From a bacterium (GTDB taxonomy: Bacteria > Auribacterota > UBA3054), in contig JAGCTE010000044.1 of NCBI GenBank assembly GCA_017963805.1, positions 1 to 64,000 of the forward strand: a stretch of 64,000 nucleotides of DNA, read 5' to 3'. Every line of letters begins with the position of its first letter. Within the stretch, counting starts at the first letter, position 1. The notes below the pieces were generated by a model that saw nothing but the letters and a program-made list of their open reading frames with translations, ran no database searches and was not told the DNA's origin. Positions 5,392 to 22,746 of the stretch are shown in pieces. The position numbers and the translations under genes were made by a program.

Positions 5392-5413
5392 ACAGATGCT
5401 ATCACATAATACA

Positions 5414-8400: not shown

Positions 8401-8791
8401 CATGCTGCAGGGCAGCACCAACACTGTCGTCTTTTCCTACACCAACGATTTCAAGGCCGCCGAGATCACCAGCCTGAAGCTCAACGACGGCGCTTCCGAG
8501 ACCTTGTCGAGAGACGTTACCTTAACTCTCGCCACCGACAACGCCATTAGGAAAGCAAGATGGGCCTATTCGGAGGAGGAGCTTGAGGAGACGGAATGGG
8601 AAGAAAGCTTCACCGCCAAAACCATAACGCTCCCGGAAGAGGAAAAGAAATACACCGTCTACGCGCAAGTTTTGTCAAGAGACTTTGTCCCCTCTTACAC
8701 TAAGAGCGCAGAAATAACCCTCGTCCCGGAACCGGGTTTAATATTCGCGCTTTGGGTACTAGCTGCCTTCGGGCTGCGAAAACGCTTTTAA
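5414..8791 (+). CDS. Surface protein with two tandem HExxH metalloprotease-like units and a PEP-CTERM tail
   Basis: About 1125 residues, exported (hydrophobic stretch QLLLLLIFAFSFTSLAA near residues 12-28). It is an internal duplication of the upstream protein. Unit 1 begins WDLGIAWIERAEKYP and has HETGHSFGFPD at about 279-289, a full HExxHxxGxxD match. Unit 2 begins WDMGLAWLERTPKYG and has HESGHSLQLPD at about 813-823, with Gly changed to Gln. Each unit contains the CARDB-like domain, the YPLAPYGIIDRYRV-type block, and DIMR(Y/F) after the zinc motif. A short Ig-like linker (WAYNEAGLNDAEW / WAYSEEELEETEW) closes each unit. The C-terminus is VPEPGLIFALWVLAAFGLRKRF, a PEP-CTERM signal starting near 1104. 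Starts at 5396, 5414 and 5435 are all possible; none has a strong ribosome binding site. The last 33 bp overlap the convergent glycosyltransferase gene. Confidence 0.8.
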   Translation: MNNTTGKMRARQLLLLLIFAFSFTSLAAWDLGIAWIERAEKYPNPKDADNVFNRPAPGDVVHWTANIYSNSEETSGDVTAYLKWYVNTKLEAVHTQSFSKAEGIYTDSYAWTVPENYTYDFTRSLTNKLSLVMSYPGSLRDNNSGNDSREIFLDAMTFRVKVYTNTFWKYTVKGSSPKSFYDNLEDTIQFMNGRYAAMSYPLAPYGIIDRYRVDHVEMMNVAKDPTRFEGCEDYYTTVSYSEGDDYGGYLGNPYDWIGQTFLWNGNGVFSTMGHGAVCHETGHSFGFPDTYRFNMPAANNKVFGEAYTCNWADPKGKEDIMRYCYNGTRDVFTELECATINLKAGSQRRYPPEMHNGVKGWMFACLPTNICIKAYGENGHELCLAEVLVYRGTGSSYELAFGNTSPSYTLTYDQGAKFKPNYSYDNNNLYYNSFIFKLPGDDTSNYKIIDSLRLNYEYLKGQKDVCFFSFTNANYKAAEPTSIVIGDGSGSTFTLKNELHLSYPANAQKIRWAYNEAGLNDAEWLDISEDMEMIFTKNGRLSIYFQTLSYDCVLSDVYVREITVTTDWDMGLAWLERTPKYGIGKYDIGSTYRPKPGDRLTWTANIYCNTSLTNDPIDVVVDWYVNTKKEASHTNSFRVVRDLYQDDFHWTMPDTYVYDFTKPLTNIVRAVISYPEGYVDNNVSNNVLDVYMDALSFGVTVVNSTFDKYTKSSKKSFYDHMNDTINYMNAQYARAKSVLAPYGIIDRYRVGYLKRQDSEYFPLNPADSTNCTTQLVFNEGGSMGAFFNAPYYWIGQTFASGIFDMAGHGALCHESGHSLQLPDTYRFDLSEENNKVNGKAWGCKWMDPEGMQDIMRFCYDGWGDIFCGVGPAAANLQAGVYRRTPPEIYSNEFCYSVGWMFQYLPTSIVVRVHHTDGRELDQLPIQIYRGGGEGYYMQFPDSHYEWRKIYSKGGIRFEPNCRYDNARIFENCFMISLRCTGTPFDILDVLRLNHLCMLQGSTNTVVFSYTNDFKAAEITSLKLNDGASETLSRDVTLTLATDNAIRKARWAYSEEELEETEWEESFTAKTITLPEEEKKYTVYAQVLSRDFVPSYTKSAEITLVPEPGLIFALWVLAAFGLRKRF

Positions 8792-9706
8792 GATCTCAGC
8801 CAAAGGCGGAAGTTTGCCTGTGAAGGCGAAAACGAGGCCGGCCCAGACTCCTTTCAAATAAGCTTTGACAAAGGAGGCGGGAGCCTTGTACCAAAGCATG
8901 TTGAAAAGATAATAGGCGTGGTACAGCGGCTGATAGAAAAGCATGAAGACGAGGAACTGGAACATGGTTCCGTAGCGCTTTATCAAAACGGCGCGGTTCC
9001 TGGCGAAGATGTAGGTCTGCAAAGGATTCGTTAATCCGAGTCTTCTGGCGTCTGATCTTTTCACTTCCTGCATGTGGTCGGTCACGGCGTCCAAAAGGAA
9101 GAGCGCCTTGAAGCCTCGCTTTTCCATGCGGCGGCAGTAGTCCTCGTCGGCCATGGTGGAAAAAAGACGGTCGTCCATTAAGCCCGTCGCTTGGGCGGCT
9201 TCTTTTTTTATTAGCGTGGCGTTCGGGATCCTGCGCGTGGGGTAAGTCTTTGTGTCTTTTGTAAAATTCTTGTCGTTGAGAAGATTCCTGCCGCTCCACA
9301 TGGAGGTTTCTCCCCCGCAGAAGCAGACCGTCTTGGGATCGTCATAACCGTTCATAAAGAGCGGAAGGACGATGCCGAGGTTGGGATCGGAAAAAAGCTT
9401 TCTTTGCAGTTTCTCAAGCATGTCTGGTTCTACGATGTTATCGTCGTCGAGAAGCAGAACGGAATCGGTCGTGAAAGTTGAGAGCGCCAGGTTGTGGCAG
9501 TAGGAAAGGCCGAAATTCTCTTTGTTTTCAATGACCTTGACCTGGGGGAATTCATTTTCGAGCATTTCGGCAGTCCCGTCCGTCGAGGCGTTGTCGTAAA
9601 CTCTCACTTCGTCCGGGACGAGCGTCCCGGAAAGGACGGAAGCAAGGCACTTCCTTAGGAGTTCCTTCCTGTTGCGGGTTATAACTGCGACCGTGACGCT
9701 CGGCAT
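8759..9706 (-). CDS. Family 2 glycosyltransferase
   Basis: Transfers a sugar from a nucleotide donor, probably at the inner face of the membrane. The 315-residue protein has the GT-A fold of GT2 enzymes: the opening VTVAVITRNRKELL, the VYDNASTDGT donor-site motif near 37-45, the metal-binding LLLDDDN at 84-90 and a DEDYCRRMEKRG acid-base segment near 205. An aromatic hydrophobic stretch around 250-272 may contact the membrane. It is the last gene of a nine-gene leftward run, 1 nt after the parvulin-type lipoprotein gene, and overlaps the convergent PEP-CTERM gene by 33 bp. The acceptor is unknown; surface glycan or glycoprotein synthesis is inferred from the context. Confidence 0.88.
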   Translation of the reverse strand: MPSVTVAVITRNRKELLRKCLASVLSGTLVPDEVRVYDNASTDGTAEMLENEFPQVKVIENKENFGLSYCHNLALSTFTTDSVLLLDDDNIVEPDMLEKLQRKLFSDPNLGIVLPLFMNGYDDPKTVCFCGGETSMWSGRNLLNDKNFTKDTKTYPTRRIPNATLIKKEAAQATGLMDDRLFSTMADEDYCRRMEKRGFKALFLLDAVTDHMQEVKRSDARRLGLTNPLQTYIFARNRAVLIKRYGTMFQFLVFMLFYQPLYHAYYLFNMLWYKAPASFVKAYLKGVWAGLVFAFTGKLPPLAEILKAFSQPEGS

Positions 9707-9707
9707 G

Positions 9708-10706
9708 TCAGGGGATCTCCAGGTAACGTATATCGGCCCTGTTCCTCAGGAAGAGCAGCCATTTGCCGCGGTTCTCGTCCAGCACCTGTTTTATGAGGTA
9801 CTCCATCAAAACCACCCGCGATTCCTCGAAAGAATTGGTATAGGCCGGCGCTTTTCTGGTGACGTAAAGGAGATGCGCGCCGAGAGGAGAGACTACTACG
9901 CCGCTCGTGTTGCTTATGGCCAAAGCGAAAGCGGCGTCGTGGATGACTTTGGGAACGGAGTTGGTGTCCCCCTTCCTCAGTTCGCCCACCATGCCGTCGT
10001 GCTGGGATGAGCGGCACTCGGAATACTCCCTGGCCGCCTTGGCGAAGGTAATGTACTTGTGGTCTATCTGGTCTTTGATGTAATTGAGGTATTCGTCGGC
10101 GTAAACTTCCTTGGAACCGTCAGGAAGGAACCTCTTGTCGAGGGAGACCTGGATATGCGAGAGCCAGAGGCGCTCGGGCAGGATCATGTGATCTTTCAAG
10201 AGCTCGTAGGTCTCCCTCAGCTGCTCCTCCGTGGGAGGGTTTAGATGCATGTCCCTTGTGAAGACCTTAAGGGCTTCAAGATCGGCCTTGACGTCCGCTT
10301 CCAATTCCTCTAACGTCACGTATCCCCTTTCCTGGAGATAGTTGATGAAATTGTCGGAGCCGCCCAGGTCGTCGATCATTTTCGAGATGTGGGCTTTGAT
10401 CTCCTCGTCGCTGATGGTGGCAGGAGTTTCCTTGATCCTCTGCTTGACGAGTTCCTCGTTGATCATCTGCTCGAGCTTCTGGCCGCGCATTTTCTTCAAA
10501 AGCTCATAGGTCACGGGAGGATTGTGCTTCTCGTATTCCTCGCCCCAGTTTGAGATGTAGAGTTCCAGCGTCTCGGACATAAGGGGAACTCCGTTGACCG
10601 TCGCTATGACGCGGTTGGTCAGCGCCGTTTCACGGTCGGCGGGCGTTTCCGGAATGTCGCAGCCCAGAAGGAAGAGCGCGAAAAGCAACGGAATATACTT
10701 CACCAT
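9708..10706 (-). CDS. SurA/PrsA-like peptidyl-prolyl isomerase lipoprotein
   Basis: Periplasmic folding factor, 332 residues. The lipobox LFLLGC places the lipidated cysteine at 16. A SurA_N-like helical chaperone region covers roughly 30-170 (VIATVNGVPLMSETLELYI, then INEELVKQRIKE). A parvulin-type rotamase domain covers about 180-305: it has the family pattern of AREYSECRSSQHDGMVGELRKG followed by IHDAAFALAISNTSGVV. The usual LGW/F of parvulins is degenerate, so isomerase activity is uncertain while the chaperone role is likely. The ATG lies within the last codons of the upstream small gene (7-bp overlap) and uses that gene's Glu codons as a Shine-Dalgarno sequence. Probably assists export of the subtilases encoded upstream in the same operon (inference). 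Confidence 0.85.
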   Translation of the reverse strand: MVKYIPLLFALFLLGCDIPETPADRETALTNRVIATVNGVPLMSETLELYISNWGEEYEKHNPPVTYELLKKMRGQKLEQMINEELVKQRIKETPATISDEEIKAHISKMIDDLGGSDNFINYLQERGYVTLEELEADVKADLEALKVFTRDMHLNPPTEEQLRETYELLKDHMILPERLWLSHIQVSLDKRFLPDGSKEVYADEYLNYIKDQIDHKYITFAKAAREYSECRSSQHDGMVGELRKGDTNSVPKVIHDAAFALAISNTSGVVVSPLGAHLLYVTRKAPAYTNSFEESRVVLMEYLIKQVLDENRGKWLLFLRNRADIRYLEIP

Positions 10707-10888
10707 TCCTCCTCCTCGCCGCGGATCTTTTTTGGACGCGGCCTGGGGTCTGGTTTGGCGAAGCGCTCAAGGTCTTCTTTTCTCTTTTTCTCCCTGCGCT
10801 CGCTTTTGCAGGCGTGGTAGCGGCTGCGGCGGCGGGAATGGCGGAAGACTTCCACCTCTTCTGTTTTGACGTCTTCAGGCAAAATCAA
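10700..10888 (-). CDS. Small basic protein of the subtilase operon
   Basis: A 62-residue protein I do not recognise. It is rich in Arg, Lys and Glu: the centre HSRRRSRYHACKSERREKKR is strongly basic and the end KKIRGEEEEW acidic. There is no signal peptide or membrane segment. It would start with TTG at 10888, overlapping the upstream stop (TTGA); a GTG at 10855 is an alternative. Its GAG-GAG-GAG-GAA end forms the ribosome binding site of the next gene. The 11- and 8-residue flanks leave no room for another gene. It could bind RNA or nucleic acid, or mainly serve translational coupling; expression is not proven. Confidence 0.5.
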   Translation of the reverse strand: MILPEDVKTEEVEVFRHSRRRSRYHACKSERREKKRKEDLERFAKPDPRPRPKKIRGEEEEW

Positions 10889-12000
10889 TCCTCTGTGAAC
10901 TGGCGTTTCAGCTGCTCCATCTCGCGCTTTTCCCTGTTGGGGTCGGAGACGAGGTTAAGGAAGGTCTTGATCTTTTTCTGCTTCGGCTTGACGGTCACCA
11001 TGGTGCGCTGGGATCTGAGGCGCTTGTCGCCGTGCAAGGCTTCCAAATAATAGACGCCGGGCTGCACGTGCTTGAAGATATAGAAGCCTTCCTTACTGTA
11101 GGTGTCGGCTTCCATATGGATGAGCATGCCGTTGGATCTGGCGTCCCTCAATATAACCCTGGCGTCCAGGTGGCGCAAAGGATTGCCGTCCATGAGAACG
11201 TAGCCGTAGAGGTCGCGCCGGTCGCGGTCAACGCTGATCCTCACGCCTTCGTTGGTCAAGGTGATCGGGAAGTAATAGAATCTTCCCTCGTTGATCCTTT
11301 CGTCGATGAAGCGCTTGCGGCGCTCCAAGACCATCGTGTAGCGGCCGGGCGTGATGTCTTTTATGCAGAAGAGGCCGTTGGTGACGACCAGGCCTCCGGC
11401 CTGGGCGCCCTCCTGGTTCATGAGGCGCAGAAAGACGCCGCGCTGGGCGTCCTCGCCGTCCACGGTAAGCTTTCCGTAAACGGTCATCGGCATCACGAAG
11501 CGGATGTTGACGTCGTAGCGGTAGCCCGGCAGCAAGACCAGGTTCGTGAAGAAGAACTGGTTCTTGTAATGGGCGGTAAGCGTGTAGTAGTTGGAGGAAG
11601 TGATGTAGTAGGCGTAGGTGCCTTTCCTGGTCGTCAGCATCGACCTTAGGTCCTCGCTGTCCTCGGCGCGGAAGAAAAGCGTCTTTACGTTCGCCATCGG
11701 TTCTCCCTTATGGTTCACGACTTTGCCGGTAAGCAGCCCGTTGCCGGGAAATTGTTCGCCCAAACTCTTGCCCTGCTTCGATTCGGTGTCGCCTATCATG
11801 CTGCTGATGAGCTGATCTATCTCGCTGTCATTTGCGGAAGAAGGCTCTTTCGAAAAAGGATCGTCAAGCTGACTCAGCGTGTCCTCAATGAGCTTTAAGT
11901 CCATGCTGTCTTTCTTGACGCTGCTGACTTTGAATTCGGGATCCGCGGCGTCCGCCAGTACGAACCCGCTGAATAGGAAAAGAAAAAGTAGTTTTTTCAT
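10885..12000 (-). CDS. Secreted protein with carboxypeptidase-regulatory-like domains
   Basis: A 371-residue exported protein with a signal peptide (MKKLLFLFLFSGFVLADA). After an acidic, low-structure segment (about 19-85) come two or three beta-sandwich modules of the CarboxypepD_reg/transthyretin-like type. The first opens LTGKVVNHKGEPMANV, the second VYGKLTVDGEDAQRG, the third LYGYVLMDGNPLRHLDARV. Each closes with a GxYxL/GxYxM turn (TPGRYTMVLE, QPGVYYLEA). Such modules usually act as surface adaptor or binding domains. There is no catalytic site and no sorting signal. It lies 4 nt downstream of the third subtilase gene and overlaps the small gene that follows by 4 bp. Confidence 0.78.
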   Translation of the reverse strand: MKKLLFLFLFSGFVLADAADPEFKVSSVKKDSMDLKLIEDTLSQLDDPFSKEPSSANDSEIDQLISSMIGDTESKQGKSLGEQFPGNGLLTGKVVNHKGEPMANVKTLFFRAEDSEDLRSMLTTRKGTYAYYITSSNYYTLTAHYKNQFFFTNLVLLPGYRYDVNIRFVMPMTVYGKLTVDGEDAQRGVFLRLMNQEGAQAGGLVVTNGLFCIKDITPGRYTMVLERRKRFIDERINEGRFYYFPITLTNEGVRISVDRDRRDLYGYVLMDGNPLRHLDARVILRDARSNGMLIHMEADTYSKEGFYIFKHVQPGVYYLEALHGDKRLRSQRTMVTVKPKQKKIKTFLNLVSDPNREKREMEQLKRQFTED

Positions 12001-12004
12001 GATC

Positions 12005-14104
12005 TTATTTGGTTTTTCTGCCCAAAAGAAGGGCGATTAAAAGCGCTGACAAAAGGATCGAAGGCTCGGGCACAAGCTCGTCCGCGCCGGAAACGGTCAG
12101 GGCGAAAGCTTGGTTCGGGCGCATAAGGTTGCCGGCCCTGACTATCACCTCGATGTCTTCTCCCGGGGGCAGATCTTCAACGTGCACCTTCTCCGTGTTG
12201 TTCAAGGTGTCGGTGCCCGATCTCAGGGAATTGGGGAGATAGGTGGTTTCGCCGACTGTGACCGTAAGATCCAGATCGTTGATCAGCGAGACCGCGGCCC
12301 CCACGCTGCCCGCGAGGTCAGTCCAGCAGAGAGTGACGTTTAAGGTGTTTGTTGTGTTGTTGGCGAATACAAACGACGCTTCGTCGCCGGTGTTTTTCAG
12401 GCTGCCCTCGAAAGGAAAGAGCTGCCCGGAACTGGGATTGATGCTCTCGAAAAGATTGACGTGCCCGAACCCGTTCACGCAGTTGGGAGTTCTTTTAGGT
12501 ATTTCGCTATTGTTGCTGTACTGACCGTTCCCCATCGATCTGCATCCGTTTATAAGCACGGACCTGACCAGTGCGGAGGTAGGCTTCTCAAAACCGTTTT
12601 CCTTAAGATACTGCATGATGTCGGCGCAGGCGCCGGCGGTAAGCGGCGTGGACATGGAGGTGCCGGACATGAAGGCGTAGTAGCTCACCCTTGTGCCGTT
12701 GTTCAGAGGATCGCAAAGCGATTCGGTGGATTTGACCTGGGTGCCGGGGGCGCAGACGTCGGGCTTGATGCGGCCGTCCTTGGCGGGCCCCCTGCTGGAA
12801 TTCATCATCATCCCCTGCTGAACGCCGTTGGCGGGGTAGGCAATTTTGTCTTCGTAGAAAATGCTGCCGGGCTGCGCGCCGTATAGGGCGTAAGTCGTGG
12901 CAACGTCCGGACGGTAGTTTTCGGAGGCGCCGACCGTGATGACGTTTTTCGAAACGGCCGCCGAACCCATGGTGCAGTTGTCCTCCGTTATTATGTCCTT
13001 GTTGTTGTTGCCGGCGGAGAAAAGCACCAGATAATCCGGATATTTCTTGCAGATCTGGTCCCAGGCGCGGGCGCTGGAGTTGTATTCCCCGTCGCCGCCG
13101 GTGCCGTAGGAGTTGCTCATGATGCGGGCGCCCGCGGAATAAGCCAGCTTGACGTCCGTCTCGTCTGGCGCGGCGATCCCGTTGCCGGCTCCGCCGCAGC
13201 AGATGAAATAAATGTCGGCGTCCGGGGCCATGCCGCCCGCGCCGGAATCAATGGTTCCGTTGCCGAGGACCGATCCGGCCACGTGTGTGCCGTGCCCGTT
13301 AAGGTCGCTCCATTCGGTCCTCGCGGTATTGTAGCTGCAGACAACTCCGGTGATCTTTTTGCCTTTGAAATCGGGATGGATGGTGTCGGGGTCGCCGCTG
13401 TCGAAGCCGGTGTCGGCAACGCAGACTGTCACTCCTTTTCCCGTGTATCCCATCGAATTGACAGGCGTGACGTTCATGAGCGCCGGCGTCTTGGCAACGT
13501 CGTTGTTTATCGTCCAGACGGGCTCCTCCTCAACGTTGACCACCGCGCTAAGACTTGAAAGCTTCGGCACAAGGCCGCTTTTGATCTCCGCCCGAACGAG
13601 AGACGCGGTCTCGCTCGCCAGCGCGCATTTTGAGCAGCCGTTCTCTTTCAAAAACTTCTCCACTTCCCCGTAGGCGGCGCTGGAAACAAGGATAATGAGC
13701 GCCGAGAAAGAGTCCTCTTTCGCCATGAGCGTTTCGCGGAAGGCGCCAGCCGTTTTGTATTCGGGAAGGTATTCCCCGGCATAGAGGATCTCAAAGCGCG
13801 CCTTAAGATCATCAAGCGCTTTTTCTGTGCACAGAACATGGTAGGCGTTGGGCGGGAAAAAGCCGACTATTTCAACGCCGAGTGACTCTACGGCCTCGAT
13901 GTCGTCGCCGTCAAAATTTCGGGCGGGCTGGAGGATGTACTGGAATTTGCCCGAGGAAGTCGGGGCGCATTTCGTTATGGAGACAGCCGACAACGCGGCG
14001 GCTTCCGGATCGATGACGGTCTCCCTCAGCCTGATCGGGCCCGGGTCGGCGGGAACGGAGAGGGCGGCGGAACAAAGGAGAAGAATAAGGAACGTTTTTT
14101 TCAT
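12005..14104 (-). CDS. KP-43-like subtilase (S8) with PEP-CTERM tail, third of three tandem copies
   Basis: Secreted serine protease, 699 residues. Signal peptide 1-19, then a propeptide-like region (about 45-190) with the block FQYILQPARNF and GFFPPNAYHV. The subtilase domain has Asp231 (VADTGFDSGD), His271 (NGHGTHVAGS), the oxyanion Asn in MSNSYG (331) and Ser483 (SGTSMSTPL), so it should be active. A C-terminal KP-43-type jelly-roll (TLCWTDLAGSVGAAVSLIND) follows. The tail VPEPSILLSALLIALLLGRKTK is a PEP-CTERM signal: PEP motif, hydrophobic span and basic end. It is processed and anchored by an exosortase not encoded here. It is separated from its paralogue by 4 nt. The substrate is unknown. 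Confidence 0.93.
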   Translation of the reverse strand: MKKTFLILLLCSAALSVPADPGPIRLRETVIDPEAAALSAVSITKCAPTSSGKFQYILQPARNFDGDDIEAVESLGVEIVGFFPPNAYHVLCTEKALDDLKARFEILYAGEYLPEYKTAGAFRETLMAKEDSFSALIILVSSAAYGEVEKFLKENGCSKCALASETASLVRAEIKSGLVPKLSSLSAVVNVEEEPVWTINNDVAKTPALMNVTPVNSMGYTGKGVTVCVADTGFDSGDPDTIHPDFKGKKITGVVCSYNTARTEWSDLNGHGTHVAGSVLGNGTIDSGAGGMAPDADIYFICCGGAGNGIAAPDETDVKLAYSAGARIMSNSYGTGGDGEYNSSARAWDQICKKYPDYLVLFSAGNNNKDIITEDNCTMGSAAVSKNVITVGASENYRPDVATTYALYGAQPGSIFYEDKIAYPANGVQQGMMMNSSRGPAKDGRIKPDVCAPGTQVKSTESLCDPLNNGTRVSYYAFMSGTSMSTPLTAGACADIMQYLKENGFEKPTSALVRSVLINGCRSMGNGQYSNNSEIPKRTPNCVNGFGHVNLFESINPSSGQLFPFEGSLKNTGDEASFVFANNTTNTLNVTLCWTDLAGSVGAAVSLINDLDLTVTVGETTYLPNSLRSGTDTLNNTEKVHVEDLPPGEDIEVIVRAGNLMRPNQAFALTVSGADELVPEPSILLSALLIALLLGRKTK

Positions 14105-14108
14105 AGTT

Positions 14109-16196
14109 TTATTTTCTTTTTCTGCCCAAAAGCAGGGCGAATATAAGGGACGCGAAGAAAAGAGACGGTTCGGGTACGAACTCGTCCATGCCGGAAACGG
14201 CCAGGGCGAAGGCCTGGGGCCCTTTCATGATATTGGCGGCTTTAATTTTCACCTCGATGTTGTCGCCGGTCGGGAAAACATCCATGTATAGTTTTTCAAC
14301 GTTGTTTATGCTGTCGGTGCCGCTTTCCAATCCGTTGGGAAGATAGGTGGTCTCGTCGACGGTGACGGTCATGTCAAGGTCGTTGACAAGCGCCTTCCTG
14401 GCCGATGTGCTTCCGACGGGGTCGTTCCAGCACAAGGTGAAGCTTCCGGAGTTGGCCCACCTCTTTTCGAAGGTGTAGGTGACTTCGTCGCCGGTGTTGT
14501 TCAAAGTGCCTTCAAAGAAGAAAAGCTCGCCGTCCGCGGGGTCGATGCTCTCGTTGATGTCAACATGACCGAAGCCGTTGACGCAGTTCGGGGTGACGTC
14601 GGGGATCTCCGTGGCGCTCCTGTACTGGCCGGTGCCCATCGATCTCGCGCCGTTTATAAGAACGGCTTTCACAAGCGCGGAGCTCGGTTTTTCCACGCCG
14701 CTCTCAAGAAGGAACTGCAGTATGTCGGCGCAGCCGCCGGCCGTCAGAGGCGTGGACATGGAGGTGCCTGACATGAAGGTGTAGTAACCGTCCATTTTTC
14801 GGGTGCCGTTGTTTTTCGCGTCGAAAACGGATTCCGTCGATTGGACCAAGGTTCCCGGGGCGCAGACGTCCGGTTTGGCGCGGCCGTCGGTGCAGGGCCC
14901 CCTGCTTGAGAACATCGCCATGCCCTGGTTGCTGCCGTCGGCGGGATAAGCGATCTTGTCGCTGTAGAAGACCGTCCCCTGCGGAGCCATCTGAAGCTCA
15001 CCGTATGTCTTGGAATCCTGGCGGTAGTTCTCGGAGGCGCCGACTGTCAGCACGTTCTTCGCCGACGCCGTGGCGCTGAGGGTGGAGTTGTTTACGGTGC
15101 TGATGTTTTCGTTGTCATTGCCGGCGGAGAAGAGGATCAGCATATCGGGGAATTTGTTGGCGATCCCGTCCCATTTTACGGAGTCGGAAACATAGGCTCC
15201 GGCGTTGTAATGGTTCCCCCAGCTGTTGCTCATGATGCGGGCGCCGGAGTCGTAGGCGCCTTTCACGTCGGCTTCGCTTGGCGGATACACGGATTGTCCC
15301 GCTCCCCCGATGGAGATGAAGTAAAGGGCGGCGTCCGGCGCCATGCCGGCGTTCTGGTAGGTGTAGCTTCCGGTGCCGCAGACGGAGCCGCAGACATGCG
15401 TGCCGTGGCCGTTCAGGTCTTTCCATTCTTCCCTGGGATTGGAGATGCCAACCACGCTCGTTATGTCTTTGTTTTGAAAATCTGGGTGGATGTCGTTAAG
15501 GTCGCCGCTGTCCAGCCCGGAGTCCGCGACGCAGACCTTTACTCCCCTTCCCGTGTAACCGTGACGGTTGGCCTCCTCGACGTTCATTAGAAAATCTTTC
15601 TTGGCGACGTCGTTCATAAGAACAGACTCTTTTTCCTCCTCAACGTTGACTACGGCGCTCAATTTCACAAGCTGCGAGACCTTTTCTTCCGTCACTTCGG
15701 CCCTGACCATCACAGGTTCTTCCAAAACTTTTTCGCATCCGGGAAGAAGAGCGGAAACTTCTTCGTACTCCGCCGCGGAAGTGAGGATTATGAGAGCTTT
15801 GAAAGCGCCTTTGCCTTTCGCCATGAAGGTCTTTGAGGATCCGGTCGTCTTGAATGACGAAGGATATTCGCCGCAATAGAGAAGCTCCGTTCGGGACTTC
15901 AAAAACTCCAGCTCCTTTTCTCCCGCCAGGATCTGGTAGGCGTTCGGCGGTATGATCCCGACGAAAACTACGCCCGCGCGTTCAGCCGTCTTCATCTCTT
16001 CGGTCGTGAAATTTTTGGCCGGTTGGATGACGTACTGGTATTTCCCGCAGGAAGTGGGAGCGCATTCTGGTTTGACATAGCTTTGCGTTTTCGGAGCCGA
16101 GGGGTCGATCACGTTTTCCCTAAGATAAATGAGACCGGGGTCGGCTATGGCGCCTAAAGAGGCGGCAAGAAGTGTGAGAAGAACGATTTTTTTCAT
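14109..16196 (-). CDS. KP-43-like subtilase (S8) with PEP-CTERM tail, second of three tandem copies
   Basis: A 695-residue paralogue of both neighbours with the same architecture: signal peptide (MKKIVLLTLLAASLGAIA), propeptide-like region with YQYVIQPAKNF and GIIPPNAYQIL, catalytic domain, jelly-roll (TLCWNDPVGSTSARKALVND) and PEP-CTERM end VPEPSLFFASLIFALLLGRKRK. The triad is intact: Asp225 (VADSGLDSGD), His264 (NGHGTHVCGS) and Ser479 (SGTSMSTPL). The His motif has Cys in place of the usual Ala after HV. It sits 3 nt from the first copy and 4 nt from the third. The three copies clearly arose by tandem duplication but differ strongly in the surface loops and the propeptide, which suggests different substrates rather than a gene-dosage effect (inference). 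Confidence 0.93.
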   Translation of the reverse strand: MKKIVLLTLLAASLGAIADPGLIYLRENVIDPSAPKTQSYVKPECAPTSCGKYQYVIQPAKNFTTEEMKTAERAGVVFVGIIPPNAYQILAGEKELEFLKSRTELLYCGEYPSSFKTTGSSKTFMAKGKGAFKALIILTSAAEYEEVSALLPGCEKVLEEPVMVRAEVTEEKVSQLVKLSAVVNVEEEKESVLMNDVAKKDFLMNVEEANRHGYTGRGVKVCVADSGLDSGDLNDIHPDFQNKDITSVVGISNPREEWKDLNGHGTHVCGSVCGTGSYTYQNAGMAPDAALYFISIGGAGQSVYPPSEADVKGAYDSGARIMSNSWGNHYNAGAYVSDSVKWDGIANKFPDMLILFSAGNDNENISTVNNSTLSATASAKNVLTVGASENYRQDSKTYGELQMAPQGTVFYSDKIAYPADGSNQGMAMFSSRGPCTDGRAKPDVCAPGTLVQSTESVFDAKNNGTRKMDGYYTFMSGTSMSTPLTAGGCADILQFLLESGVEKPSSALVKAVLINGARSMGTGQYRSATEIPDVTPNCVNGFGHVDINESIDPADGELFFFEGTLNNTGDEVTYTFEKRWANSGSFTLCWNDPVGSTSARKALVNDLDMTVTVDETTYLPNGLESGTDSINNVEKLYMDVFPTGDNIEVKIKAANIMKGPQAFALAVSGMDEFVPEPSLFFASLIFALLLGRKRK

Positions 16197-16199
16197 AGT

Positions 16200-18302
16200 T
16201 TATTTGTTTTTGGTTTTTAAAAGAGCTAAGACAAAAAAAGCGAACAGGAAGAGTCCCGGTTCGGGAACCACTTCGGAATCCACGCCGGAAACGGCAAGCG
16301 AAAACGTTTGTGGGCCCTGCATGACGTTGTAGCCCTTCACGGCTACCTTTATGTTGCCGCTTGGCAATTCGTCCGACCTGAACCGCTCCACGTTGTTTAT
16401 GGAGTCGCAGTGTTCGCCTGAGCCGTCGCAATAGTATTCGTATCCGCCGCAGGAAACTGAGATGTCAAGGTCGTTCACAAGCGCGATCTCGGCGCCGACC
16501 GTCCCGGGATAGTCGTTCCAGACCAAGGTTGCCGAGACCGGCCCGGGGGAGGATTTGGCGAAGACGTAGGCGACTTCGGCGTCCGTGTCGTCAATGACGC
16601 CGTCGTGAAGGAAAAGCTTGCCGACTTTAGGCTTTAAGCTTTCGGCCAGGTCGACGTGCCCGAAGCCGTTGACGCAGTTGGGATCTTCCGCGGGTATCTC
16701 CGTGTAGCCCTCGTACTGCCCGGTCCCCATGTTCCTGGCGCCGTTAATCAGGAGCGCCTTGACAAGCGAGGCGGAGGGATAAGTGAAGCCCTGTTCAATG
16801 AGGAACTGCATGGCGTCCGCCGCGGCTCCCGTCGTCAGGGGCGTCGCCATGGAGGTGCCTTCCATTACGGTGTAGTAGCTGCTCCTGGTCCCGTTGTTTT
16901 TACTGTCCCAAAGAGATTCCGTCGAGATTATCTGGGTCCCGGGAGCGACAATGTCCGGTTTGAATCTTCCGTCCCTGGCGGGACCGCGGGATGAGAAATA
17001 AGCCATGCCCTGCTGGGTGCCGTTCTGCGGGGAAGCAGTGAGGTCCGTATTGAAAGGCGCCGCCACGTTGGAGTAAAGGCTGCCGTAGGTGAAGGGTCTG
17101 TCGGGACGGTACGATTCCGCGGCGCCCACCGTGAGGACGTTTTTGGCGGCGGCCTGGGTGCTTAAGGTGCAGTTGTTTTCCGTATCTATCTTTTTGTTGC
17201 TGTTGCCGGCCGCGAAAAGGATCAGGAAATCCGGGTTGTTATAGGTGGCAACGTCGTAGAAAAGAGACGAAGTAGTGTATTTCCCGGCGATGTCGGTGCT
17301 GTACGCTCCCCAGCTGTTGTTCATGACGCGGGCGCCGCTGTCGTAGGCGCCGCCCATATCCGCCATTTCGGGAGGATAGACGCTGGAAGAGTTGCCTCCG
17401 ATGCAGATGAAGTAAAGAGACGCATCCGGAGCGGTCCCGGCGTAAGTGCCGTTTTCATGGGCGCCGGTTCCGACCGCGGAGCCGCTGACATGGGTGCCGT
17501 GCCCGTTGAGATCGCGCCAGTCAGTCCTTTCGGTGTTTTTAGAAGCGACGACGCCTATCACGTCCTTGTTCTGGAAGTCCGGATGAATGTCACTTGGGTC
17601 TCCGCTGTCAAGACCGGTGTCCGCGACGCAGACCATGATCCCTTTTCCGGTGTAGCCCAGGGTGTTCATCGCGTCGACGTTCATGACAACTTCGCTTCTG
17701 GCGGCGTTGTTAAAGATCTTCGCCTCTACTTCCTCCTCCACGCTGAGAACGTCGGAACGGAGGACAAGCTTGTCGACAAGATCTATGCCGCAGACCGCCC
17801 TTAAGATAGGAGGACGCTCGCAGAGCAAAGAAACATCCTTCGCGCCTTCTTCCTTGAGGAAAGCGATAACGGTCGCCGTTTCGTCAGGGCCTGTCAAAAT
17901 AATGTTCAGTTTGACTTCGCTTCCAGCGCTGAAAAATCTGCCCGTGGGAAGGCCGTTCTTGTATTCCGGAAGATATTCGCTGACGTAAAGCAAAGGATGT
18001 TTCTCTTCCAGACTTTTCAGATCTTCCGGCGCGGCGAGGACTATGTAGGCGTTGGGGGGAACGAAGCCGATGAAGGAAACGCCCGCTTCTTTCAGCGCGG
18101 CGCGCTCCTTGTTCGTGAAATTCTTCACGGGCTGTATGAGGTATTGATAGCAGCCGTTCTGGTCGGGGGCGCAGCGCTTTTCTCCCTTCGCCATAATAGA
18201 AGGCGCCGAAGGATCAAGGGAAACATCCCTTAACCTAATGAGGCCTGGATCGGCCGCGGAAATGAGCGCTCCCAAAAGAAGCGGGACAAGTATTTTTTTC
18301 AT
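16200..18302 (-). CDS. KP-43-like subtilase (S8) with PEP-CTERM tail, first of three tandem copies
   Basis: About 700 residues, with the architecture of the two downstream copies. The catalytic residues are Asp228 (VADTGLDSGD), His268 (NGHGTHVSGS) and Ser484 (EGTSMATPL), numbered from the ATG at 18302. The tail VPEPGLFLFAFFVLALLKTKNK is a PEP-CTERM signal, though it lacks the arginine directly after the hydrophobic span found in the other two. I chose 18302 (MKKILVPLLL) over the ATG at 18311: it sits about 10 nt after a GGAGGA site, while 18311 is only 1 nt from it, and paralogues begin MKK. The upstream stop overlaps 18308-18310, so translation is probably coupled to the heparinase-like gene. 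Confidence 0.92.
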   Translation of the reverse strand: MKKILVPLLLGALISAADPGLIRLRDVSLDPSAPSIMAKGEKRCAPDQNGCYQYLIQPVKNFTNKERAALKEAGVSFIGFVPPNAYIVLAAPEDLKSLEEKHPLLYVSEYLPEYKNGLPTGRFFSAGSEVKLNIILTGPDETATVIAFLKEEGAKDVSLLCERPPILRAVCGIDLVDKLVLRSDVLSVEEEVEAKIFNNAARSEVVMNVDAMNTLGYTGKGIMVCVADTGLDSGDPSDIHPDFQNKDVIGVVASKNTERTDWRDLNGHGTHVSGSAVGTGAHENGTYAGTAPDASLYFICIGGNSSSVYPPEMADMGGAYDSGARVMNNSWGAYSTDIAGKYTTSSLFYDVATYNNPDFLILFAAGNSNKKIDTENNCTLSTQAAAKNVLTVGAAESYRPDRPFTYGSLYSNVAAPFNTDLTASPQNGTQQGMAYFSSRGPARDGRFKPDIVAPGTQIISTESLWDSKNNGTRSSYYTVMEGTSMATPLTTGAAADAMQFLIEQGFTYPSASLVKALLINGARNMGTGQYEGYTEIPAEDPNCVNGFGHVDLAESLKPKVGKLFLHDGVIDDTDAEVAYVFAKSSPGPVSATLVWNDYPGTVGAEIALVNDLDISVSCGGYEYYCDGSGEHCDSINNVERFRSDELPSGNIKVAVKGYNVMQGPQTFSLAVSGVDSEVVPEPGLFLFAFFVLALLKTKNK

Positions 18303-18307
18303 GTCTG

Positions 18308-20287
18308 TCATTCCTCCGTAAGCTCCGCGTTCAAGTTTTGCAGAAGGACTCCGCTTTCCCTGTGCAGCCTCAGGAAAGCGAAAGGTTCCGGGCTGACCTT
18401 CATGGACTGCCTTTTGTTGATGTTGAAGTCCAGGGGTTCAAGGGAAAAATTAATGACGGCGTAGTCGAGATAATCGCCCGCGGCTATCTCGAAAACCAGC
18501 GCGTCCTTTTCTATTTCAAGCCTGACAAGGCTTTTAACTTTCGGAACGGAGTCGTAAACTTCGTGCAGCGCGGCGAAGCGGGTCTCCTTGACGTTTTCCC
18601 TGCGGGCTATCACCATGTTCCCGTCGGTCGTGCGGTAATGCGTGATCTCCCCGGTCCTGGCTATGTCGCCGCCGTCCCTGGCGGTTAAAAGCCTTGTCGC
18701 GCTCTGGCCCAGCATGATCGTTCTCAGGCCGTTTCCGAAGTCGCATCCCCACTGCGCCGAAGCCAGCTGCGACGTGACGTCTTCCAAGGTCTGGTAGGCG
18801 GGCTCTCTGTAGGCCGCGCCCAGAAAGCTCTTAGCTATGTCTTTTATCTCGTAGCTGTTTTCGGGAGCGGTCGCGCCGGTAAGGCTCGGGCTCTTTTGAC
18901 TCTCGGAGTGCATCACCCAATCGGCGGTGAAGGGGGAATCCGCTTTCAGCGTGAAGATGTCAAGAAGGTAATCGTCCGTCATGAAGAACGTCCGGCGGTA
19001 ATTCTTCATGGCGGGATAAGCGTCGGTCCCGTCCAGGTCGAGGAAGGTTATCCCCTGCTTGCATTGGGAGCGCAGTATCTTCGCGCTCGCGGCGGACTGT
19101 CTTTTGAAATCGATGACTGCGGTGGAGGAAGACAAAGTGTGCGTAGCGAAATCCCTGCCGATCAAAGAGCGCCCGTCCTGCCCCTGGCGGCGTCCCATCT
19201 GGGTTTTGCCGCTTCCGGAAAAGACAAACGACAAAAGATCGCCGAAGCGTCCGCCGCTGGTCTTTATCACTCTAAGGTAGCGCGCCCCGCTTCCTTTTTG
19301 CACGCGGGAGCGGGCGGTTATCCAGCCGGAACCCGCCGGGCTCTTGAGGAGCGGAAGCCTCGGGTACGCCGCGGCCTTCCTTGCCGAAGCGTAGTAGAAG
19401 ACCGCGTCAAAGGGAGACTCCAGCGCCGCAGCCCTCAGGTCTCTCAAGGCCAGGCCGCAGCGCAGCGCCACTATAAAGGAGACAGCGGGCGAAAAAGCGG
19501 CGTCCCCTTCCCAGCCGCGTCCCGGCAGAACGTCGGCGGTATCCTTCAGTTCGTTCAGCGCGCAGGCCCATTTCTTCACGGCGCCGTCCCTGTAAAGGTC
19601 GCACCCTTTGCCAAGCAATGTCTCCGCGGCGAAGCAGACATTCTCCAAAAGGCTCATTGAAACGCCGACTTCCATGGCGGTGAACATGCCGTCTGAGTTG
19701 AGCATTGAAAGCATTCCCCTTATCTCTTCCGGCGCTCCGACGCTCTGGCGCCCGGTTGCGGCCGCGGCCAACGCTTTGAATAAGGTACAGAACCAGCCGG
19801 CCGTTTTGTCGTCAAGGTCGAACTCCTTGTCCTGAGCCCTTGAAACGAGCCAGGAATCCGCCTCTGGTCTTTCCTCCGGCTTCATGGAATTCCTCAGGGC
19901 CGCGTGCGATTTGGCAAGCGTTGCGAAACTTCTTCTCTGGGCCATGGGCTTGGGATAATCCCGCCTGACTTCGCGGTAGAGGGAGAGCGCGTCCTGGATA
20001 AGATAGACGTCCTTGTTCTTCAAGCCGAGCAGAGTCTTGGCCCAGATGCGCTCTATCTTTTCCTCCGTCCCGGTTACGGGATCGAACTTCCCTTTTTCGG
20101 TGGCGTTCCCGCCCCTGGACAATTCCTCGACCTTGTTCCAGAGAAGCGGGCTCTCGACTTTCCTCAGAGCCGCGGAGAGTTCCTGGGTGTTTTCCACCTT
20201 GTATTGGTCGCAAACGGGCCAGACGGAAGCGTTGGCGCAAAGCGTCAGGACAAAAAGGGAAAGGAATATTGCAAGTTCGCGAAGCAT
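18308..20287 (-). CDS. Secreted heparinase II/III-like protein
   Basis: A 659-residue exported protein (signal peptide about 1-20, cleavage near ANA-SVWP). The N-terminal ~330 residues are helical, like the alpha/alpha toroid of polysaccharide lyases. The second half has the beta-sandwich signature of the heparinase II/III family: RRTFFMTDDYLLDIFTLKAD followed by FTADWVMHSES. Family members cleave or bind acidic polysaccharides such as heparan or alginate. I cannot assign the catalytic His/Tyr with confidence, so lyase activity is probable but not shown. The start overlaps the stop of the upstream phosphatase-superfamily gene (TGATG) and the stop overlaps the region before the first subtilase. 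Confidence 0.72.
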   Translation of the reverse strand: MLRELAIFLSLFVLTLCANASVWPVCDQYKVENTQELSAALRKVESPLLWNKVEELSRGGNATEKGKFDPVTGTEEKIERIWAKTLLGLKNKDVYLIQDALSLYREVRRDYPKPMAQRRSFATLAKSHAALRNSMKPEERPEADSWLVSRAQDKEFDLDDKTAGWFCTLFKALAAAATGRQSVGAPEEIRGMLSMLNSDGMFTAMEVGVSMSLLENVCFAAETLLGKGCDLYRDGAVKKWACALNELKDTADVLPGRGWEGDAAFSPAVSFIVALRCGLALRDLRAAALESPFDAVFYYASARKAAAYPRLPLLKSPAGSGWITARSRVQKGSGARYLRVIKTSGGRFGDLLSFVFSGSGKTQMGRRQGQDGRSLIGRDFATHTLSSSTAVIDFKRQSAASAKILRSQCKQGITFLDLDGTDAYPAMKNYRRTFFMTDDYLLDIFTLKADSPFTADWVMHSESQKSPSLTGATAPENSYEIKDIAKSFLGAAYREPAYQTLEDVTSQLASAQWGCDFGNGLRTIMLGQSATRLLTARDGGDIARTGEITHYRTTDGNMVIARRENVKETRFAALHEVYDSVPKVKSLVRLEIEKDALVFEIAAGDYLDYAVINFSLEPLDFNINKRQSMKVSPEPFAFLRLHRESGVLLQNLNAELTEE

Positions 20288-21921
20288 CAGAGGTATCCGA
20301 GGTCTTTCAGTCTTTCCTGAAGTTTTTCTTCGTTCTCGTCGACGGTCTTTTCCGCCTGCCCGTAGGGCGCCTCTTTGTAACGCCTGACGGTCGGTTCCTC
20401 CGTCAGCGCTTCCGCAAGGACTTTCCCGTCCAGGTCATCGGACAGCGGAATGCCCATGAGCGCAAGGATCGTAGGCGTCACGTCCATAATGGAGGCAGAG
20501 ATCGTTTCGCCCTGCCTTACGCCTTTCCCCTGCAGCATGTAGATCCCGTACTGGCGGTGGTCGCCGGACCTCGGCTGGCCGTGCTGCGTGGAAGGCATGA
20601 CGGTCTTTTCCGCGAAGCCCTGGTTGAAGGAATAGCCTACGGCCGGCTCAAGGTAGAGGTCGGAGGCGTTTTTGACAAAGTCTCCTTTGAAAACTTCCTT
20701 CGCCTTGAAAACTTTCGCTATGACCTTCGTTCCGTCCTCGTCCCTCATTTCAAGCAGGTCGTTTGCGAGCTTTTCCAAAAACTCGTCGCAGTCTTTTTCA
20801 TCCATGACGCCGCTCGCTTCCCTGCCCTTCATGTTCAGCCTGACGGAGCGGGCGGACATGGAGGAGAAATAAGCCTTCGTAGTCTCCCAGTCGACGGCGG
20901 AAAGAGCCGTGGCGGAACGCACCGTCTCGGCGCCGGCGCCGCCAATGGCGGAACGCTTCTCAAGCTGCGCCCTGCGGTGCTTGAGATAAATTTGCCAGAG
21001 CCCGAGTCTGTCGAGCGCGGACGCTGTCACAAGTTTCCATTTCGCGACTTTGCCGACGTTCACCGCGTCGAGCCCCTCCTTCACGGAAAGATAGCCCTTG
21101 TCCCTCAAATAATTGTTGACGTAGATGTCTTTTTTCACCTCACCGAAGCCGTGGTCGCTGATCGCCATGACGTAAACGTTCCCGGGAAGCGTGTCCAGAA
21201 ATTTCCCCAAAAGGGAATCAAGGAAAACGAAATGGTCTTTGAAAAGGTTGGCGTACGGCCCCCGCTTCTCCACCATGCTCTCTTTCCAGAAGAAATGGAA
21301 AAGCCTGTCCATCTCGACGAAACAGAACATGGCGAAATGCGGCTTCAGTTCGGCATAGAGTTCCGTGAAAACTTTGAACTGCTCCTCGCAATGGGCGTTG
21401 ACGCCCTTGACGAAGGAGGCGAAATCGCCTTCGTGCAGAAAGCGCGAGGGCATGTCGACTTTGAAATTCGGATGCTCCCTTTTTATCCGCTTCTTCAATT
21501 CGGGAGGATACGTGTACTCGCAGTCCCACTCGGGAGTGCCGAAACCGGTAATGAGATATCCGTTCACCGGTTCGGGAGGATAAGTGTGCGGCACGTTCAT
21601 GACCAAAACTCTCCCGCCTTCATTGGAGACGTAGTTCCAGACCGCGCGGCAGCGCCTGTCTTTCCTGCTGGTCAGATGCACGTCATAATCGGATCCGCTG
21701 TAAGAGAAGAAATCGAATATGTTGTGCTTGCCGGGATTGCGCCCTGTTACGGAAGACGTCCAGCCCGGAGGCGTCAGAGGAGGGGTCGTTGAGTCAAGGG
21801 GACCGTGGACGCCCTTGTAAAGTCTCGCGAAATTGGGAAGCGCGCCCTCTTTGATCAAAGGCTCAATGACGGACCAGTCGGCGCCGTCAAGGCCCAGTAC
21901 AAAAGTTCTTACATCATTCAT
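20287..21921 (-). CDS. Alkaline-phosphatase-superfamily phosphodiesterase/nucleotide pyrophosphatase-like
   Basis: Metal-dependent hydrolase or transferase of 544 residues. Motifs of the type I phosphodiesterase branch are visible: GLDGADW (10-16, metal Asp12), TPPLTPPGWTSSVTG (46-60, with the nucleophilic Thr), the mid-domain ISDHGFGEVKKD (metal Asp/His) and the C-terminal QHGQPRSGDHRQYGIYML with metal His. There is no signal peptide, so the protein acts in the cytoplasm or is exported by other means. Relatives are often encoded in exopolysaccharide and sorting-signal loci, but their substrates are poorly known. It is the first gene of the nine-gene run. Its ATG is only 8 nt after an extended -10 motif, with no ribosome binding site, suggesting a leaderless message. 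Confidence 0.85.
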   Translation of the reverse strand: MNDVRTFVLGLDGADWSVIEPLIKEGALPNFARLYKGVHGPLDSTTPPLTPPGWTSSVTGRNPGKHNIFDFFSYSGSDYDVHLTSRKDRRCRAVWNYVSNEGGRVLVMNVPHTYPPEPVNGYLITGFGTPEWDCEYTYPPELKKRIKREHPNFKVDMPSRFLHEGDFASFVKGVNAHCEEQFKVFTELYAELKPHFAMFCFVEMDRLFHFFWKESMVEKRGPYANLFKDHFVFLDSLLGKFLDTLPGNVYVMAISDHGFGEVKKDIYVNNYLRDKGYLSVKEGLDAVNVGKVAKWKLVTASALDRLGLWQIYLKHRRAQLEKRSAIGGAGAETVRSATALSAVDWETTKAYFSSMSARSVRLNMKGREASGVMDEKDCDEFLEKLANDLLEMRDEDGTKVIAKVFKAKEVFKGDFVKNASDLYLEPAVGYSFNQGFAEKTVMPSTQHGQPRSGDHRQYGIYMLQGKGVRQGETISASIMDVTPTILALMGIPLSDDLDGKVLAEALTEEPTVRRYKEAPYGQAEKTVDENEEKLQERLKDLGYL

Positions 21922-21929
21922 ATTTACTT

Positions 21930-21938
21930 ATTTTAGCA
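21930..21938 (-). promoter_or_regulatory. Extended -10 promoter of the nine-gene operon
   Basis: TGCTAAAAT on the minus strand ends 8 nt before the ATG at 21921; no good -35 is seen 17 nt upstream. The same nine bases (TGCTAAAAT) precede the nucleoside kinase operon at 44926-44934. Transcription would begin almost at the start codon. Confidence 0.4.
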
Positions 21939-21989
21939 AAAAAGCGCGGCGTTTTTTCAGGCAGGGAAATGGAGGAAAAAAACAGCCTT

Positions 21990-22004
21990 TTCCACTTTAT
22001 CCCA
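21990..22004 (-). promoter_or_regulatory. MraZ-type box pair facing the leftward operon
   Basis: On the minus strand TGGGA (22004-22000), then TAAAG, then TGGAA (21994-21990). This is the TGGGN-N5-TGGGN layout with one mismatch, and the flanks AAAGTGGGATAAAGTGG resemble the boxes at mraZ. It lies 69-83 bp upstream of the 21921 start. Binding by MraZ is inferred. Confidence 0.4.
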
Positions 22005-22024
22005 CTTTTATCGTCAAAGCAAAG

Positions 22025-22044
22025 TTAACCACAAGTTATCCACA
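22025..22044 (+). promoter_or_regulatory. Two tandem DnaA boxes with 11-bp spacing
   Basis: TTAACCACA (22025-22033) and TTATCCACA (22036-22044) lie in the same orientation within the 11-bp repeat GTTAACCACAA/GTTATCCACAA. The second is a perfect match to TTWTNCACA, the first has one mismatch. They could tie expression of the wall/division cluster to DnaA; too few boxes are present to call an origin. Confidence 0.5.
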
Positions 22045-22163
22045 AGTAGAAGCGATCATTTTGCCCGTTTTTACCTTTTTCAAGCCCCCTTCCCACCACT
22101 TTCTCTTGTTAAAATAAATATCGTGTTTTAAATATGTTATTAAGCAAGAAAGCAACACCCTGA

Positions 22164-22182
22164 CCCCTCCTGGTGGGAGGGG
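22164..22182. repeat. G/C hairpin upstream of the mraZ promoter
   Basis: CCCCTCC, loop TGGTG, GGAGGGG: a perfect 7-bp stem. No T-run follows, and the flanking genes diverge, so it is not an obvious terminator. The loop overlaps the first TGGGA box. Confidence 0.45.
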
Positions 22183-22208
22183 GGTTGACTTTGTGGGACA
22201 AAGTGGGA
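22174..22208 (+). promoter_or_regulatory. MraZ operator: phased TGGGA repeats
   Basis: TGGGA occurs at 22174, 22194 and 22204, all in 10-bp phase, with the last two separated by exactly 5 nt. E. coli MraZ recognises TGGGN direct repeats 5 nt apart upstream of its own gene. The boxes lie between and upstream of the -35 and -10 elements, consistent with autorepression. Confidence 0.68.
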
Positions 22209-22214
22209 TATAAT
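22185..22214 (+). promoter_or_regulatory. Sigma-70 promoter of mraZ and the dcw cluster
   Basis: TTGACT (22185-22190), 18-nt spacer, TATAAT (22209-22214). Predicted start near 22221, giving a leader of about 70 nt before the mraZ ATG at 22291. Confidence 0.75.
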
Positions 22215-22290
22215 AGTGGTCGAAAATTTACGGAGTGTGTTTTTTTAACAGATTGTGTGTGTTCAAAGCATTTCCAAAATCAATTAACCA

Positions 22291-22740
22291 ATGGCTAAAG
22301 AAAGGTACATAGGAACAGCCTCTTTGAAGGTGGACGCGAAAGGGCGCATAGCCGTTCCGGCATTCTGCCGCGTGAACGACGCCAAGGTCTTTTTCGTCAC
22401 CTACGGCCGCAAGAGATTTTTGCGTCTCTACGACTGGGAGGATTTTTCCAAGAGCCTCACGATGCTCGAGGAACTGGACCCTTACGATGCCAGGACCGAG
22501 GAAATGAAGCGTGCTTTGCTGGGCGGCAGCAAACTCGAAATGGACTCCCACTCCAGGCTCACGATTCCCAAGAATCTTAGAGACTGGGCCGGGCTGACAG
22601 GAGAGATCGTCGTCGCCGGCGTCTCCTCTTACATGGAGATCTGGAACAGCGAAGCATACGCGGCGGAATTTGCCGCCAACATCGCCGATCTCGGAAAGAA
22701 CATGCAGGAAATCGCGGAAAGCAGAAAAGAACCGAGGTAA
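22291..22740 (+). CDS. mraZ: Transcriptional regulator MraZ
   Basis: DNA-binding regulator that heads dcw clusters and represses its own promoter. The 149-residue protein has two SpoVT/AbrB-like swapped-hairpin repeats, recognised by DAKGRIAVP at about 15-23 and DSHSRLTIP at about 85-93 (consensus DxxGRxxLP). The second repeat has His-Ser in place of the usual Lys/Gln-Gly, so the two halves differ. Upstream TGGGA repeats fit MraZ binding. The gene is followed after 6 nt by rsmH with an AGGTAAGAAGCT-like ribosome site, as in most bacteria. Confidence 0.95.
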   Translation: MAKERYIGTASLKVDAKGRIAVPAFCRVNDAKVFFVTYGRKRFLRLYDWEDFSKSLTMLEELDPYDARTEEMKRALLGGSKLEMDSHSRLTIPKNLRDWAGLTGEIVVAGVSSYMEIWNSEAYAAEFAANIADLGKNMQEIAESRKEPR

Positions 22741-22746
22741 GAAGCT

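Follow-up and report, generated by a model that had tools for sequence, protein, structure and literature searches.

Introduction

MraZ is among the most conserved of the bacterial regulators. In E. coli and the Mollicutes it autoregulates the mur/fts division (dcw) cluster. The published Mollicutes sites consist of directly repeated AAAGTG[T/G], and in M. genitalium a site is present only at mraZ (PMC8475190). Here, we describe a run of nine minus-strand genes that stands divergent from mraZ in a stretch of 64 000 nucleotides from a bacterium of the Auribacterota (UBA3054; assembly GCA_017963805.1, contig JAGCTE010000044.1, positions 1 to 64,000; hereafter the window). The mraZ promoter of the window carries the same GTGG direct repeats, with a period of ~10 bp, as the described systems. 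Unlike in E. coli and Mollicutes, a second, divergent box pair faces the nine-gene run, which includes three genes for secreted subtilases. We put at about one in two the probability that this run is a genus-specific surface-protease and cell-envelope operon, with periplasmic folding included, that is co-regulated with dcw.

The encoded proteins can be set beside four other described systems. The subtilases share their catalytic domain, C-terminal β-domain and intact triad motifs with KP-43 and SubHal of family S8 (PDB entries 1WMD and 5FAX), but differ from them in a ~200-residue N-terminal region, a PEP-CTERM tail and their occurrence as three tandem copies beside helper proteins. The tail architecture, the signal peptide and the presence of an exosortase in the genome are as in PEP-CTERM/exosortase (EpsH) sorting (PMC1569441), whereas the exosortase lies outside the operon and is fused to DUF3485, and the cargo is a protease set. 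A lipoprotein with a Rotamase domain and a SurA-like N-terminal domain resembles the parvulin foldases of the SurA/PrsA type, although its gene is linked throughout the order to a CarboxypepD_reg gene and not to genes for outer-membrane proteins. Finally, a heparinase-like protein has remote profile similarity, across both domains, to the heparinase II/III and oligo-alginate lyases of families PL12, PL15 and PL17, but has lost the Asn/His motif, the Tyr and the His of these enzymes and is probably not a lyase. All operon proteins for which a domain was matched are members of known families; in the open-access literature searched, we found no description of this gene combination, nor of a further MraZ-type site, unique in its genome, that faces an operon other than dcw.

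Organization and conservation of the nine-gene run

An earlier note on this DNA had described nine coupled genes, and all nine open reading frames were found where it had placed them (8759-21921). From the phosphodiesterase gene (PDE) to the glycosyltransferase gene (GT2) the successive intergenic distances are -1, -4, +3, +4, +4, -4, -7 and +1 nucleotides (nt). The coupling is therefore tight, as proposed, with no overlap or gap above 7 nt, and spacing of only a few bases is general in the clade of the window.

The genome of the window (G000) comprises 2.05 Mb in 74 contigs, and its relatives are genomes (MAGs) of uncultured bacteria from ruminant gut samples. The same genes were found in the same order in each of the eight sampled genus members (G000-G007), with mraZ adjoining the operon wherever the contig continues. 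Contig breaks affect G002, G003, G004 and G007, the missing parts being on other contigs or past the break; the run itself is split by breaks in G002 and G004, and PDE is hidden by one in G007. Most of the operon proteins are 54-94% identical across the eight members (72-92% for PDE in six other members). As both order and neighbourhood are conserved in 8/8 genomes, the run is not a chance arrangement. Outside the genus the operon as a whole was not found: sister families keep only the gene for the CarboxypepD_reg-like protein (CpD) followed by that for the parvulin lipoprotein, as in the same-order relatives G008, G009, G011 and G012. In G011 the next gene encodes a PEP-CTERM protein of the SMP-30 type. 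Judged by gene order, the nine-gene run is a genus-level assembly and not a widespread system, and the CpD-parvulin pair, which occurs in sister families with no adjoining subtilases, predates it.

The possibility of independent promoters inside the run, raised in the same note, has a divided answer. In the window, internal promoter-like and terminator-like signals do not exceed the shuffled expectation. Between the genes for the heparinase-like protein (Hep) and the first subtilase there is an overlap of 1-4 nt in G000-G004, but a gap of 117-123 nt in G005-G007. The gap holds GAGCGGTTTTTCCGCTCTTTTTCTTTTTTT, a hairpin resembling an intrinsic terminator, in G005 and G006, and a similar sequence in G007; downstream of it, all three have TTTTGCTA(C/A)AATAA, a promoter-like extended -10 element. 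These signals would separate PDE-Hep from the rest, and an unbroken nine-gene unit is thus a property of the clade of the window and not of the whole genus.

MraZ-type boxes and DnaA-type boxes

The intergenic region between PDE and mraZ (21922-22290) was aligned in six genus members. It holds three conserved blocks: the mraZ promoter (score 11/12, strong; two GTGGG repeats within the spacer), a repeat that faces the operon and a tandem DnaA-type box. The box pattern GTGGGNNWAAGTGGRA was searched with 0 mismatches over 39 genomes, and exactly two sites per genome were found in 8/8 genus members. Both sites lie in this intergenic region, divergent and about 200 bp apart. Because the pattern was written from the six-genome alignment, their occurrence in the aligned genomes is by construction; independent of the alignment are the lack of any further site and the presence of both sites in G004 and G007, which were outside it. 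A reversed-pattern control returned 0 sites in the eight members. The operon-facing box has 13/16 invariant columns, compared with 42/209 in the background intergenic sequence (Fisher p of about 1e-6). The operon is thus preceded by a conserved, genome-specific direct-repeat box, to which MraZ is predicted to bind. That operon and dcw have this signature in common suggests that protease production may be tied to growth and division.

Beyond the genus, the order relative G008 has a single GTGGGNNWAAGTGGRA site, within its mraZ promoter (its mraZ is not known to adjoin this operon), and in G015, a genome from the same phylum, GTGGAGTAAAGTGGAGTAAAGTGGGG repeats precede rsmH. Box matches in G011 and G023 were treated as chance, as no mraZ or rsmH match lies nearby. 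In G014 (L301 5380-5395) a GTGGGTAATTGTGGG repeat upstream of mraZ faces a divergent glycosyltransferase cluster; this is a single case, and the repeat overlaps a possible reading frame.

The tandem DnaA-type boxes are kept in 8/8 genus members, with 19/22 invariant columns (42/209 in the background). A second tandem of this type was observed in G005 (L273 about 5530-5600; contig C7, 145.5 kb), upstream of a gene for an 862-residue BamA-like protein, from which promoters of envelope assembly may share a DnaA-type element. The coordinates of all features are collected in Table 1.

Table 1. Genes of the nine-gene run and elements of the intergenic region shared with mraZ
Feature	Position	Strand	Description
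PDE	20287..21921	-	PF01663 phosphodiesterase/nucleotide pyrophosphatase, alkaline-phosphatase superfamily, 544 residues; first gene of the operon
Heparinase-like (Hep)	18308..20287	-	Secreted, 659 residues; divergent heparinase II/III or alginate-lyase-like, catalytic positions lost
Subtilase A	16200..18311	-	KP-43-type S8, PF00082; Asp/His/Ser motifs intact; PEP-CTERM
Subtilase B	14109..16196	-	KP-43-type S8, PF00082; triad motifs intact; PEP-CTERM
Subtilase C	12005..14104	-	KP-43-type S8, PF00082; triad motifs intact; PEP-CTERM
CpD	10885..12000	-	Secreted CarboxypepD_reg-like β-domain protein, PF13620, 371 residues; conserved in the order
Small basic open reading frame	10700..10888	-	62 residues, TTG start
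Parvulin lipoprotein	9708..10706	-	SurA-like parvulin-type peptidyl-prolyl isomerase; Rotamase and SurA_N domains
GT2	8759..9706	-	Glycosyltransferase, rhamnosyltransferase-like; last gene of the operon
mraZ	22291..22740	+	PF02381; divergent from the operon; opens the dcw cluster; presumed regulator
Candidate extended -10	21930..21938	-	TGCTAAAAT; 8 nt from the PDE start codon (ATG), implying a nearly leaderless mRNA; weakest element
Operon-facing MraZ-type box pair	21990..22005	-	GTGGGATAAAGTGGAA; direct repeat, conserved
Tandem DnaA-type boxes	22025..22044	+	TTAACCACA (22025-22033) and TTATCCACA (22036-22044), 11 bp apart
mraZ promoter	22185..22214	+	TTGACT-18-TATAAT; box pair GTGGGACAAAGTGGGA (22193-22208) within the spacer

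On the other side of the intergenic region, mraZ and the adjacent rsmH open the dcw cluster, which extends to ~39.2 kb. A minus-strand reading frame at 22228-23475 is antisense to both genes and was rejected as spurious. A search for structured RNAs gave no Rfam match in the window. Convergent with the operon on the plus strand are two genes for secreted HExGH metallopeptidase-like proteins (3913-5391 and about 5390-8791). The latter protein has two HExGH-motif domains and a PEP-CTERM tail, and the end of its gene overlaps that of the GT2 gene by 33 bp. The pair is kept in G001 and is replaced by further subtilases in G003.

Subtilases and their exchange between species

The identification of the three proteases as PEP-CTERM subtilases was borne out: each has an S8 domain with intact Asp/His/Ser motifs and a PEP-CTERM tail, and all are predicted to be active. 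The best match in the PDB is KP-43 (1WMD; E of 4e-58 over ~470 residues, 201-671); this comparison was made with subtilase C, while the triad motifs were checked in all three. A signal peptide is present, and each C-terminus runs from VPEP through a hydrophobic stretch to a basic end (for example VPEPSILLSALLIALLLGRKTK), although Pfam PF07589 matches only one of the three, below its cut-off. About 40 PEP-CTERM matches, many of them below the cut-off, were found in the genome of the window. Its single exosortase is encoded on another contig (L164 3351-5411, contig C20) and has an EpsH domain fused to a DUF3485 (EpsI-type) domain, an arrangement seen in frames of ~700 residues throughout the order. 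Anchoring is therefore general rather than, as had been supposed, a dedicated function of the operon.

Eight of the 11 subtilases of the genome are encoded outside the operon. The closest pair of these (51-53% identical) has no flanking genes of the operon within the 18 kb read, and none were seen in the stretches read around the other subtilases; subtilases thus do occur apart from the neighbours with which the note had joined them. Further clusters of large subtilases (~800-1520 residues), mostly with PEP-CTERM tails, lie on contigs C68 and C47 (L026, L027 and L028), and secreted proteases are abundant in this genome.

In a tree of the subtilases, the operon copies form four lineages (A, B, C and D). 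The set is A-B-C in G000, G001 and G003 and A-C-D in G002, G004, G005, G006 and G007, so that among genus members lineage B is confined to the first three. The frame genes (Hep, CpD and parvulin) unite G005, G006 and G007 with full support. This group is rejected by the trees of subtilase A (p-AU of 6e-8) and subtilase C (p-AU of 0.0017). Subtilase A of G006 is 85-89% identical to those of G000, G002 and G003 compared with 63% to that of G005, and subtilase C of G007 is 90% identical to that of G004. The conflict between the subtilase and frame-gene trees indicates an exchange of subtilase copies between species within a fixed frame.

Accessory proteins

The parvulin lipoprotein has a Rotamase domain, a SurA-like N-terminal domain and an LLGC lipobox. 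Together with CpD it forms a possible pair of folding helpers, as had been proposed, but one that is not exclusive to the subtilase operon. The small basic reading frame is a real gene, given that its core FRHSRRRSRYHA is conserved in 8/8 genus members. A single Ser is replaced by Ala in the G005 copy, and the genes of G006 and G007 were recognised only through frame reading. The EEEE tail of the small protein likely supplies the ribosome-binding site of the next gene.

No signal peptide is evident in PDE, and a search by sequence gave no relatives of solved structure. Relatives in G009 and G014 (45-48% identity) are encoded away from dcw, and the neighbours of same-order homologues are a TrpB-like gene and a gene for a PEP-CTERM protein. 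On a Thermoanaerobaculum contig, the gene after a PDE homologue matches GT2.

The heparinase-like protein of the window has no Pfam match, but order-level homologues match Hepar_II_III_C and Alginate_lyase, and a profile search reaches PL15 and PL17 lyases with similarity over both domains (E of about 3e-8). The same-order homologues are about 730 residues long, 25-33% identical and encoded elsewhere. In the genus proteins, the Asn/His ((H)NH) motif is deleted in a five-residue gap, Met or His occupies the catalytic Tyr position and Ser replaces the His of AHN. These positions were mapped by sequence alignment only, by analogy with 4NEI and 4MMH; the catalytic residue sets of the lyases are tabulated in PMC12088678. 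AlphaFold models have pLDDT values of 37 for this protein and 40 for CpD. The protein is probably a pseudo-lyase, and cleavage of polysaccharide is doubtful because the lyase positions are missing.

Discussion

Under the preferred reading, binding of MraZ at both box pairs, perhaps with DnaA, would tie protease synthesis to growth and division. The subtilases would be exported by the Sec route and aided in folding by the parvulin lipoprotein, perhaps also by CpD. They would then be processed by the single exosortase of the genome and retained at the cell surface, where they may digest proteins in the ruminant gut. The cytoplasmic PDE, and GT2, would act on an envelope glycan or carrier, and the heparinase-like protein would have a binding or structural role without catalysis. 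A more specific version is offered only tentatively: MraZ with DnaA would directly co-regulate dcw and the divergent operon, placing secreted proteolysis in the cell-cycle regulon, and the protease slots would be cassettes swapped between species.

Several points weigh against co-regulation with dcw. The candidate -10 element of the operon is not significantly conserved. The operon-facing box lies ~55 bp upstream of this sole candidate, unlike the box in the mraZ spacer, and might act on mraZ alone. The second box represents only one event in evolution, confined to one genus. In G005-G007 the subtilases stand behind a terminator and further promoter-like sequence, so that MraZ would there reach only PDE-Hep. 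The roles given to PDE, GT2, the small protein and the heparinase-like protein are, moreover, inferred only.

Some of these observations would be explained if the box pairs and DnaA-type boxes controlled mraZ and dcw only, for example through looping by MraZ, with the operon a co-inherited neighbour that has its own promoter. On the mraZ side, the box occupies the whole spacer between the -35 and -10 elements of a strong promoter, as autorepression predicts, while the operon-side box is upstream of the candidate operon promoter and not within it. However, G008 has the mraZ-side site alone, and the extra site accompanies the presence of the operon and is oriented towards it. We regard control of mraZ alone as possible but unlikely.

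The earlier note had proposed a dedicated machine, complete in itself, by which proteases are made, folded, glycosylated and anchored, perhaps with a link to polysaccharide. The conservation and coupling of all nine genes in the genus are what such a machine would show, but the helper pair is older and lacks adjoining subtilases in sister families, the other subtilases of the genome have no helper genes, the exosortase is elsewhere and shared, the lyase-like protein lacks its catalytic positions and the unit is split in G005-G007. These observations make this proposal improbable.

A replication origin in the AT-rich intergenic region, with the adjacent genes there by position only, can be set aside as very improbable: although conserved tandem TTATCCACA boxes are rare (three in a 400-kb stretch of contig C7 of G005), there are just two boxes here, no GC-skew extremum falls at the region within that 400 kb, the other tandem pair on this contig is upstream of bamA at an ordinary promoter, and in G000, as in the four relatives of the genus for which a dnaA gene was found, dnaA lies on a different contig. 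In G005 two equal-scoring dnaA matches, on contigs C4 and C6, perhaps reflect an assembly duplication.

The co-regulated surface-protease operon that we favour bears on the biology of the genus in three ways. It draws attention to a periplasmic pair, a CarboxypepD_reg protein and a parvulin lipoprotein, that is conserved throughout the order. It exhibits the swapping of subtilases between species inside a fixed gene frame. Above all, a genome-unique second MraZ-type site that faces a surface-protease operon throughout a genus provides a testable case in which division control may reach enzymes of nutrient acquisition or of the cell surface.

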